Shown here: positions 32,484 through 36,155 of the stretch, one piece after another
How positions within the stretch are numbered: the stretch's first letter is position 1
Layout of the letters: each line of letters opens with the position of its first letter
Source of the DNA: a bacterium
GTDB taxonomy: Bacteria > Desulfobacterota > Deferrisomatia > Deferrisomatales > Deferrisomataceae
Length of the DNA stretch: 64,000 bases
Assembly (NCBI GenBank): GCA_027021615.1
Contig: JALUTY010000077.1
Coordinates: 1 to 64,000 of the forward strand
Direction of reading: 5' to 3'
The notes under the pieces: model-generated
Databases searched by the model: none
Told to the model about the DNA's origin: nothing
The model's input: the letters and a program-made list of their open reading frames with translations, nothing else
Translations under genes and position numbers: made by a program

Positions 32484-33611
32484 TTACGCCGCCAGAGCCG
32501 AGGCGGTGCGCTCGGCAAGGGCCTGCCTTTTGCGGTACGCCTCGCGGCAGATCCGCATGTCCTCGAAGAACGCCTCCATCTCTTCCATGAGCATGGCCTG
32601 GGGGCCGTCGCACAGGGCCTTTTCCGGCCGAGGGTGGAAATCCACCAGCACCATGTTGGCCCCGGCGATCACCCCCTGGGCGGCGGCGTGCCAGATGTCG
32701 AGGATACGATCGGGAGCCGGCACCTTCTTGCCCACGGAGTGGGAGGGGTCGATGCACACCGGAAGCCGGGTCTGGCGCTTCACCACGGGGACCTGGGCGA
32801 AGTCCACCAGGTTCCGGTGGGGGTCGCCCAGGTTCGTCTTGACCCCCCGCAGGCAGAACACGATCCGGTGGTTTCCGTTGGTGGCCACGTACTCGCAGGC
32901 GTTCAGGCTCTCCTCCAGCGTGATGCCCATGCCCCGCTTGAACAGCACCGGAAACTCGTGCTGGCGGCCCACGTGCTTCAGCAGCTCGAAGTTCTGGGCG
33001 TTGCGGGTGCCGATCTGCACCATCACACCCGTGGGATGCCCCGCCTCGGCCAGTGCGTCGTGGATCTCCTCCAGATGGGCCTCGTGGGTCACCTCCATGG
33101 CGATGACCCGGATGCCGTACTTGCCGGCCAGCTCGAACACGTAGGGCAGGCACGCCCTGCCATGCCCCTGGAAGTCGTAGGGGGAGGTCCGGGGCTTATA
33201 GGCCCCCATCCGGGTGGTGGTGATCCCAAGGCGCGCCAGGGCCCGCATCATGGTCTCCACGTGCTCCCGGGTGTCCACGGCGCAAAGACCGGCGAACACG
33301 TGAAAGCTGTCCTGGGAGAAGGTCAGCCCCTGGTACTCGAACCCCACCTCGGGGGCCTGGCCGTCGTGGCGGCCGATGATCCGGTACTTGGAGCTCACCC
33401 GGATCACCTTCTGCACGAACGGGAGCTCCTCGAACACCTCGGTGGGCACCTGACGGGTGGGACCGAACACATAGACCTCGTGGAGGTCCTGGAGCGCGCC
33501 CCGCACCCGGTGGAACCGGAGCTCCAGGTGGGGGTACCGGGCCGCCACCGCCCGCAGGGCGGCTCGCTCCGAAGGGCCGGGCTGGGTGTCGGGTTTGAGC
33601 ACGACGATCAT
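32484..33611 (-). CDS. aroF: 3-deoxy-7-phosphoheptulonate (DAHP) synthase, AroF-type I beta
   Basis: 375 residues from the ATG at 33611 (AGGAGG upstream). An N-terminal ferredoxin-like regulatory extension (1-70) begins MIVVLKPDTQP. The KDO8PS/DAHPS-like barrel follows, with GGAYKPRTSPY-like MGAYKPRTSPYDFQG (about 133), QIGTRNAQNFELLK (about 200), LFKRGMG and CIDPSHSVGKK (about 285). It condenses PEP and erythrose 4-phosphate, the first step to aromatic amino acids. The extension suggests feedback control, and the leader carries a terminator-like hairpin. Confidence 0.94.
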   Translation of the reverse strand: MIVVLKPDTQPGPSERAALRAVAARYPHLELRFHRVRGALQDLHEVYVFGPTRQVPTEVFEELPFVQKVIRVSSKYRIIGRHDGQAPEVGFEYQGLTFSQDSFHVFAGLCAVDTREHVETMMRALARLGITTTRMGAYKPRTSPYDFQGHGRACLPYVFELAGKYGIRVIAMEVTHEAHLEEIHDALAEAGHPTGVMVQIGTRNAQNFELLKHVGRQHEFPVLFKRGMGITLEESLNACEYVATNGNHRIVFCLRGVKTNLGDPHRNLVDFAQVPVVKRQTRLPVCIDPSHSVGKKVPAPDRILDIWHAAAQGVIAGANMVLVDFHPRPEKALCDGPQAMLMEEMEAFFEDMRICREAYRKRQALAERTASALAA

Positions 33612-33631
33612 CGAACCTCCTCCTGACGAAA

Positions 33632-33664
33632 GGGGCCGTGGGCGGCTCCCCAACCCACGGCCCC
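33632..33664 (-). promoter_or_regulatory. Hairpin beside the aroF ribosome site
   Basis: An 11-base perfect inverted repeat, GGGGCCGTGGG (33632-33642) and CCCACGGCCCC (33654-33664), ends about 20 bases before the aroF ATG. In RNA it would sit directly in front of the AGGAGG ribosome site. Confidence 0.5.
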
Positions 33665-33711
33665 AAAAACAAAACGGCCACGGGCTGGCGCTTTGCCTGC
33701 CCGTGGCCGTT
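33665..33711 (-). terminator. Terminator-type hairpin in the aroF leader (possible attenuator)
   Basis: A 13-base perfect stem, AACGGCCACGGGC at 33673-33685 and its complement at 33699-33711, is followed on the minus strand by TTTTGTTTTT. This is a strong intrinsic terminator pointing at aroF, only 54 bases before its ATG. Because that gap is filled by another hairpin, aroF must be transcribed through this site, which suggests attenuation. It could instead be a backup terminator for gapA. Confidence 0.65.
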
Positions 33712-33902
33712 GGCTGTGCGGGATCTGAGTTCGTCGCGGACCGTCCCTACACCTCCGCCGCGCGGGCAGGCTTCCGAAACCAGAAGCCCCCAAAATAAAA
33801 GCAATAGGCGGCGGTAAAGTAGCGAACGGTCTGCACGGTGACCTCTCCAAACGAGCTATCTACCCTGATTCGTATACCCGAGACCCTGGCCCTTGTCCAG
33901 GA

Positions 33903-33942
33903 AAAAGTCTAGCGCCTATCAAGCTAGCGACAAAATAGGCGC
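33903..33942 (-). terminator. Hairpin after gapA
   Basis: GCGCCTAT (33912-33919) pairs with ATAGGCGC (33935-33942), followed on the minus strand by TAGACTTTTTCC. It is 40 bases after the gapA stop and is the likely gapA terminator. The sequence around it, GCGCCTATTTTG, also matches the end of the family III element at 36155, so it may be a relic of one. Confidence 0.5.
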
Positions 33943-35883: not shown

Positions 35884-36155
35884 ATTAACCCGGCGGATAA
35901 ACAGGCGCTATCGCTCCCTGCTCGGAGGGGCAAGGGACCTGCCGGAGAGCCGGGCGCGGCCCCTTAGCTCGCCGCGCAGCGCCTCCGACGCTCGGATCGC
36001 GAAATGGTTCGGATTCCACCGAGTTGTCATGAAACCAGCTCTTCGGTCCCGTGCCTGCGCGGCGAATCTCATGCCCGGCTTCGCGCCCGGCCCCGGAGGC
36101 AGGTCCCTTGTCCCCCCCCTCCGAGGTGCCGCGCCTATTTTGCCGCCAGGTTAAT
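35884..36155. repeat. Family III palindromic element, copy 2 (about 272 bp)
   Basis: The ends are inverted: ATTAACCCGGCGG...ACAGGCGC on the left, and GCGCCTATTTTGCCGCC followed by AGGTTAAT on the right. Internal blocks CAAGGGACCTGCCGGAG, GTTGTCATGAAACCAGCTC and GCCTGCGCGGCGAATCTCA match the copy at 3364-3638. The terminal bases differ from that copy, so the core is shared but the ends diverge. It begins 41 bases upstream of the MNT gene start. Confidence 0.75.

Follow-up and report, generated by a model that had tools for sequence, protein, structure and literature searches.

In the window, the 64,000-nucleotide stretch of DNA analysed here, 370 nt of the minus strand separate the stop codon of gapA (33982) from the ATG of an aroF-like gene (33611). 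The aroF open reading frame (ORF; 33611-32484, locus L004) scored over the PF00793 cut-off in a Pfam profile search, and its best match to the NCBIfam DAHP synthase models TIGR01361/PRK08673 had an E-value of 1.2e-76, below those models' curated cut-offs. Three further PF00793 matches are found in the window's genome; L003, which adjoins a gene with a CTP synthase-like end, may, we presume, be a KDO-8-P synthase. The features of the interval, with the basis of each assignment in brackets, are as follows.

33871-33899, minus strand: promoter-like element, TGGACA (33899-33894), 17-nt spacer and TATACG (33876-33871) (sequence; putative promoter)
33842-33848, minus strand: Shine-Dalgarno sequence of the leader ORF, GGAGAGG (sequence)
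33747-33836, minus strand: leader peptide ORF MQTVRYFTAAYCFYFGGFWFRKPARAAEV, GTG start, TAG stop, 29 codons (sequence, shuffles, order loci)
33783-33788, minus strand: strand 1, GGCTTC, leader codons 17-18 (sequence, folding)
33769-33774, minus strand: GAAGCC, partner of strand 1, overlapping strand 2 (sequence, folding)
33763-33771, minus strand: strand 2, GCCTGCCCG, within the leader ORF, pairs with strand 3 (pairing with double changes)
33695-33703, minus strand: strand 3, CGGGCAGGC, partner of strand 2 (antiterminator) or, partly and with a 5′ extension, of strand 4 (covariation)
33673-33711, minus strand: intrinsic terminator stem-loop, strands 3 and 4 (folding, covariation)
33665-33674, minus strand: T-run of the terminator, TTTTGTTTTT (sequence)
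33632-33664, minus strand: 11-bp hairpin ahead of the aroF ribosome site, outside the conserved switch (window and L006, not L008-L012)
33616-33623, minus strand: Shine-Dalgarno sequence of aroF, GGAGGAGG (sequence)
32484-33611, minus strand: aroF-like DAHP synthase (TIGR01361/PRK08673 type), the putatively regulated gene (profile matches)

The initial annotation had described the GGCTTC/GAAGCC pair, the terminator stem, its T-run and the 11-bp hairpin, and its coordinates proved right when re-read on the minus strand; the separate hairpin that it placed after gapA (33903-33942) is likewise readable in the sequence. This terminator-like hairpin is missing from the sister genome (L006), where the gapA-aroF gap is 304 nt vs. 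370, and it is therefore not a conserved part. The terminator arms, ACGGCCACGGGC (33710-33699) and GCCCGTGGCCGT (33685-33674), form 12 bp, or 13 counting one outer A-U pair, and the arms of the 11-bp hairpin are GGGGCCGTGGG (33664-33654) and CCCACGGCCCC (33642-33632). Strands 2 and 3 are complementary over 9 bp, strand 3 consisting of the inner terminator 5′ arm and its loop. A simple terminator scan of the window, which permits only loops of 3-8, listed nothing. The consensus promoter scan of the window did not list the TGGACA-17-TATACG element; at the equivalent position, L006, L010 and L008 carry TGGACA or TAGACG and, after a spacer of 17 nt, TATACG/TATACA, and L011 and L012 have TATATA at the place of the window's TATACG.

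An aromatic leader ORF upstream of aroF

Phe, Tyr or Trp occupies nine of the 15 codons from codon 6 to codon 20 of the leader MQTVRYFTAAYCFYFGGFWFRKPARAAEV. Its score, seven aromatic residues in 12, was reached by none of 200 dinucleotide shuffles of the 260-nt upstream region. We looked for comparable leaders, defined as an ORF with at least six F/Y/W in 12 residues no more than 260 nt upstream, at 79 AroF-relative loci. Duplicate contigs (L014, L015, L017) and loci with less than 200 nt upstream (L007, L021, L059, L062) were left out, and 72 were scored. Such an ORF was present at 19 of the 72 loci vs. 29 of 3042 background tiles. All seven loci of the order with enough upstream sequence (the window itself as L005, L006, L008, L009, L010, L011 and L012) scored 6-8, and all seven have the leader, strands 2-4 and the T-run, the ribosome site of the L009 leader being weak. 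L007 stands outside this count, its contig ending 64 nt upstream of the gene. Conservation of the aroF leader in relatives had been named beforehand as a check, with lack of conservation as a refuting outcome; within the order, the leader is kept (7/7 loci).

At the scored loci among L013-L066, which come from delta- and gammaproteobacteria, Rhodothermales and other groups and have 54-70% identity, no ORF has as many as six aromatic residues in 12; the leader is thus not a feature of the protein family as such. The remaining 12 of the 19 positive loci are distant DAHP synthases with aromatic leaders of their own, from Clostridia, Victivallales, Obscuribacterales and one MAG titled Proteobacteria (L079). 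Some of these distant leaders were matched weakly by R1, a covariance model that we built from the seven order leaders (five at E 0.04-0.27). Two aromatic leader ORFs stand in tandem ahead of DAHP synthase in L073 (an Obscuribacterales MAG) and L079, and a terminator-like hairpin and its T-run come after each ORF, an arrangement of tandem attenuators. An NCBIfam search of four leader peptides returned no family.

Elsewhere in the window's genome, neither pheA nor the other PF00793 genes (L084, L001-L003) have a convincing aromatic leader in the scanned flank. Upstream of trpE we observed a Trp leader, MAQVTTIRTTGWWWWPVNRG (L085:508-571, plus strand), and then a long hairpin, with about 800 nt lacking clear genes between that hairpin and trpE. 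By eye, similar translated stretches (EIRRAGTG... SVGGAAR.AK) occur at about 35900-36150 of the window and at L085:712-1023, both intergenic, which suggests a dispersed repeat family of this genome.

Two mutually exclusive helices

The antiterminator (2:3) shares the 5′ arm of the terminator and hence is mutually exclusive with the 3:4 helix. Across the seven order sequences (alignment A1), 96.8% of cells were paired in 2:3, with three of nine pairs changed on both sides, and slid registers paired 38.1% at most; in 3:4, 96.3% were paired and two of 12 pairs were double-changed. The covariation score was matched by 0 of 500 shuffles for 2:3 and by six of 500 for 3:4. However, the number of double-changed pairs was equalled in 79 of 500 (2:3) and 44 of 500 (3:4) shuffles, which is not significant, and the seven order sequences alone therefore do not settle the covariation. 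One change is carried through all three strands: CCCG / CGGG / CCCG in the window vs. CCAG / CTGG / CAG in L011 and L012.

A larger alignment (A4) held 51 cores from the phylum, being 56 matches less L138, L142, L143, L145 and a reverse match in L009. Here 96.5% of cells were paired in 2:3, with double changes at six of nine pairs (19 cells), and 95.0% in 3:4, with double changes at five of nine pairs (a number equalled by 39 of 500 shuffles) in 45 cells. For both helices, none of 500 shuffles was as high in covariation score or in double-change cells. The A4 result for 2:3 is biased toward that helix because the sequences were found by a model holding it; the 3:4 helix lies outside the model.

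Folding and a proposed switch

The 255-nt leader folds at -134.6 kcal/mol (z -6.0), and none of 200 shuffles folded as well. The predicted stems are the terminator (-32.7 kcal/mol), the 1:2 hairpin (-15.0 kcal/mol) and the second hairpin at 33632-33664 (-29.9 kcal/mol). We also folded the leader with a ribosome in place, using only the RNA beyond the ribosome's 3′ edge and assuming a 16-nt reach past the P site. Before strand 4 is made, the probability of 2:3 was 0.04 without a ribosome and 0.96-0.99 with the A site at codons 13-18. Codons 13-15 are Phe, Tyr and Phe, and codon 18 is Phe. With the assumed footprint, ribosomes at codon 19 or later cover strand 2, and the geometry allows a ribosome at the stop codon to mask it. 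Over 133 loci, in a search that allowed stops up to 75 nt past the strand 2 start, the leader stop ends 12-46 nt after that start, 128 of them within 9-33. Counter to the classic model, where 1:2 should compete better, a ribosome at codons 1-12 gave P(2:3) of 0.69-0.99 and P(1:2) of 0.16-0.89. At full-length equilibrium the terminator prevails at every ribosome position tried (P 1.00), and antitermination must therefore be kinetic.

The interval thus holds a short ORF with a start, a ribosome site and a stop, conserved codons for the products of the pathway, and an intrinsic terminator between leader and gene. Judged from these sequence features and from the folding model, the element upstream of aroF is very probably (about 0.9) a ribosome-mediated transcription attenuator. 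The initial annotation's aromatic attenuator is well supported; its description as an unrecognised kind does not stand, the element being recognisable once the leader peptide is seen, which had been overlooked together with its Shine-Dalgarno sequence and the strand 2/3 pairing.

We infer the promoter, the translation of the leader, the amino acid sensed and the direction of the response, as distinct from the parts, conservation and covariation reported above. In the switch that we propose, the transcript would start near 33864, with immediate translation of the leader peptide. With charged Phe- and Tyr-tRNA (perhaps also Trp-tRNA) in good supply, the ribosome would reach the stop at 33749-33747 and cover strand 2, leaving strands 3 and 4 to pair, and the terminator would free RNA polymerase ahead of aroF. 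When Phe- or Tyr-tRNA is short, the ribosome would stall at about codons 13-18, over strand 1, with strand 2 left free; strands 2 and 3 could then pair before strand 4 is made, and aroF would be transcribed. If the leader were not translated, the 1:2 hairpin would form and transcription would terminate.

A core shared across the phylum

A covariance search of aroF leaders in relatives had been proposed earlier, and R1 does find aromatic leaders beyond the seven of the order. At E <= 0.01, R1 matched 54 of 395 genomes of the phylum, where about four would be expected by chance on rough E-values. Although R1 is blind to the gene, a Phe/Tyr leader was present in 42 of the 48 loci fetched (among the matches listed, the seven source loci apart). 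The exceptions include L128 and L140, F-rich PaaK leaders that fell short of threshold or class, L138, a Leu leader before leuA, and L145, where the core is present and an aromatic leader absent. Two other matches, L142 and L143, look false, with neither leader nor core.

We then used the 51 sequences for a second covariance model, R2, of strands 2-3-4 without the leader codons. R2 matched 198 of 395 phylum genomes at E <= 1e-3. At E <= 1e-4 it matched five of 249 genomes in a control phylum (that of a gammaproteobacterial locus) vs. 65 of 148 in a redraw of the window's phylum. Two control-phylum matches, L296 and L299, precede 2-isopropylmalate synthase genes, and the L296 leader is Leu-rich; the core is thus not confined to the window's phylum. 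Among 20 genomes with AroF relatives, two matched R2 at E <= 0.01: a Myxococcales MAG, with no clear leader seen at the locus, and a Binatia MAG, which lies within the window's phylum and where a Leu-rich leader, MRIKNVFRSLPVLGLLAELLLRCPPGASAGT, stands ahead of a gene that by eye resembles leuA. The Trp leader before trpE (L085) is a weak R2 match (E 0.016).

The consensus of the core is GUCUGCCC / GGCCRUGGGCAGAC / GCCCAYGGCC-U. The start of strand 2 falls in any of the three leader frames (67, 26 and 40 of 133 loci), and in every frame GTCTGCCC is the commonest octamer; the SAR/SAH, VCP and LP ends of the peptides therefore mirror strand 2. By sequence comparison, it is the RNA, not the peptide, that is conserved in this region. 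Tandem R2 cores, with an aromatic reading frame at each by eye, were seen in L216 (G023:C66:332-413 and 515-592). L211 and L214 pair the core with an Ile-rich leader, MKKILSGIIIRIAIIMGILG, which is His-rich in another frame.

Leader codons and downstream genes

Besides the 48 R1 loci we fetched 98 further R2 loci (the matches listed, at E <= 1.3e-6, plus the window genome's second match, at E 7.7e-6), giving 146 loci among the matches listed. The best leader was Phe/Tyr at 112 of these, Trp at 12, Leu at three, Ala at two and of another class at five, with none at 12. The nearest gene, again among the matches listed, encoded DAHP synthase (63), ADH synthase (23), PaaK (12), ABC binding proteins (8), shikimate kinase (6), IorA (4), TrpD (4), LeuA (4), aminotransferases (4), TrpE (3), oxidoreductase gamma (1) or another product (14). 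Gene class is that of the nearest tblastn match; the best match within 1.46 kb differs at one locus, L265 (TrpD; nearest TrpE). One representative of most gene classes was tested with Pfam and NCBIfam, and PaaK of L197 and IorA of L224 fell below the NCBIfam cut-offs.

Among the matches listed, the leader class fitted the expected amino acid at 121 of the 122 loci with both classes, which none of 20000 permutations reached, the expectation for PaaK, IorA, the oxidoreductase, the binding proteins and the aminotransferases having been set after the leaders were seen. When the count is limited to genes of textbook biosynthesis (DAHP and ADH synthase, shikimate kinase, TrpE, TrpD and LeuA), 96 of 97 agreed among the matches listed. 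The one locus that disagrees is L235, where a Trp leader precedes a DAHP synthase gene, a combination that makes sense in its own right. The 122 do not include 24 loci at which the leader or the gene had no usable class, among them a LeuA locus (L246) whose leader scored as Ile. Phe/Tyr leaders are thus paired with DAHP synthase, ADH synthase, shikimate kinase and PaaK, Trp leaders with trpE, trpD and iorA, and Leu leaders with leuA.

Phe-rich leaders with the core stand before PaaK-type ligases in L100, L102, L107, L128, L131, L134, L140, L197, L256 and L263; the ligase is followed by a protein with an ACT-domain pair in L147 and by Liv-type ABC-transporter genes in L150. PaaK under Phe leaders and IorA under Trp leaders suggest arylacetate salvage under amino-acid control. 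Aromatic leaders also precede genes like that for ADH synthase, the first step of an alternative shikimate route, in L115, L116, L203, L229 and others, an identity taken from TIGR01949 for L229 and from tblastn for the other loci.

The window genome's second R2 match (L190, G000 contig C2:67900-69950) precedes an aminotransferase gene, and its leader holds DAAAAAAWLC. The sister genome's aminotransferase matches NF005334. A PRK06855-type aminotransferase gene is present in six of 12 genomes of the order, and at five of the six loci (L190, L191, L293-L295) the gene is preceded by an ORF for an Ala-rich leader (6-7 Ala in 10) and, past that ORF, by a terminator-like repeat; at the sixth, the contig provides 197 nt of upstream sequence. 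From sequence, the aminotransferase leader is possibly an alanine attenuator, a specificity of which we know no other case. The evidence is weaker than for the aromatic leaders because Ala runs are cheaper than Phe runs in GC-rich DNA.

Discussion

Strong multi-hairpin folding and a terminator ahead of a biosynthetic gene would also be expected of a riboswitch or T-box, in which the RNA itself, with no leader peptide, would bind a metabolite or a tRNA and so sense an aromatic compound. Yet neither the window nor 20 related loci gave an Rfam family at its gathering threshold, 17 more loci gave two tRNAs only, and the amino-acid leader families of Rfam release 15 gave no match at the gathering score in the window or its relatives. 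Nine Rfam matches in the window at E up to 5 were considered as riboswitch or T-box candidates and rejected, each being below its gathering score; the best, ar14 (E 1.3e-4), which overlies the terminator on the opposite strand, scored 33.1 bits vs. a gathering score of 58.8 and was taken as a chance similarity of GC-rich hairpins. Moreover, conservation is centred on the aromatic codons and strands 2-4, while the linker from leader stop to strand 3 varies in length and sequence, and the leader codons track the gene at 121 of 122 classified loci (among the matches listed). We consider direct sensing of this kind very unlikely. We give still less credence to a plain gapA terminator or an unrelated short transcript that carries an aromatic ORF by chance: the interval does lie behind gapA, but the leader recurs in 7/7 order loci, its score in the window was reached by 0/200 shuffles, the two alternative helices covary, and the same anatomy stands ahead of other aromatic genes.

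The initial annotation proposed an attenuator of both transcription and translation. The transcriptional part is well supported. The translational part would have the hairpin at 33632-33664 sequester or guard the aroF ribosome site, and the hairpin is a strong one (11 bp, -29.9 kcal/mol) ending 8 nt before the aroF Shine-Dalgarno sequence. However, it excludes that sequence, and among the order loci compared it is found in the window and the sister genome L006 and absent from L008-L012. Because the hairpin is not conserved, we hold a translational role to be improbable. The hairpin may still make the mRNA more stable. Near its ribosome site, close to the start codon, L007 carries another inverted repeat, and some hairpin near the aroF start may therefore matter.

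The E. coli trp and pheA attenuators have four strands, with a 1:2 hairpin, a 2:3 antiterminator, a 3:4 terminator and a leader peptide over strand 1. The transcription attenuator that we favour for the window has the same four-strand layout, whereas here the leader ORF contains the whole of strand 2. The two E. coli leader attenuators are named in the available text of PMC11802643. In Corynebacterium glutamicum, a leader peptide with Phe-Tyr-Phe (aroR) lies upstream of the DAHP synthase gene aroF (Neshat et al. 2014, as cited in PMC4046766 and PMC11802643, available text), and according to a review the attenuation responds to limitation of Phe and not of Tyr (same sources). The two systems are alike in ribosome-mediated attenuation of DAHP synthase, in different phyla, a likeness of description. 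The uORFC-13-1 motif, found upstream of aroF in Acholeplasma and environmental sequences, has a uORF with at least one Phe codon and a terminator directly downstream, and Phe-dependent control of aroF has been proposed for it (PMC8632094, available text); a uORF and a terminator before aroF are found here too, again a likeness of description. In trp attenuators of Actinobacteria and proteobacteria, complementary triples are conserved over long distances (PMC1262725, available text, citing Vitreschak et al. 2004). There, as here, strands 2, 3 and 4 share a short motif, whereas here, in a single phylum, leaders for different amino acids have one core in common. Control of aroF by a leader peptide has been published for C. 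glutamicum and suggested for Acholeplasma, and complementary triples have been published too; the mechanism proposed for the window's element is therefore of a known kind.

The newer part is the shared core with exchangeable leaders. The literature searched, including the available text of PMC4046766, PMC11802643, PMC8632094, PMC2965389 and PMC1262725, holds nothing on this leader, nor did we find there a core common to several amino-acid specificities, which is weak evidence of absence. We lean, at slightly better than even odds, toward a modular attenuator, widespread in the phylum, in which one core serves as the on/off switch and the leader peptide sets the amino acid sensed (Phe/Tyr, Trp, Leu and, in this genome and order, Ala), with targets beyond textbook biosynthesis that include PaaK-type ligases and ABC transporters (Phe/Tyr) and indolepyruvate oxidoreductase (Trp).

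If this is true, the arylacetate genes under these leaders would serve amino-acid synthesis or salvage. On the attenuator reading, charged Phe- and Tyr-tRNA would control aroF in this lineage, and the leader ORF points to a small gene that the initial annotation had overlooked. A search for the core that is blind to the gene would allow the regulatory amino acid to be read from leader codons across the phylum, and it suggests that the PaaK, IorA, aminotransferase and transporter genes, whose direction is otherwise unclear, act in synthesis and not in breakdown. It also raises the question of whether the core was copied between operons or is held by constraint.
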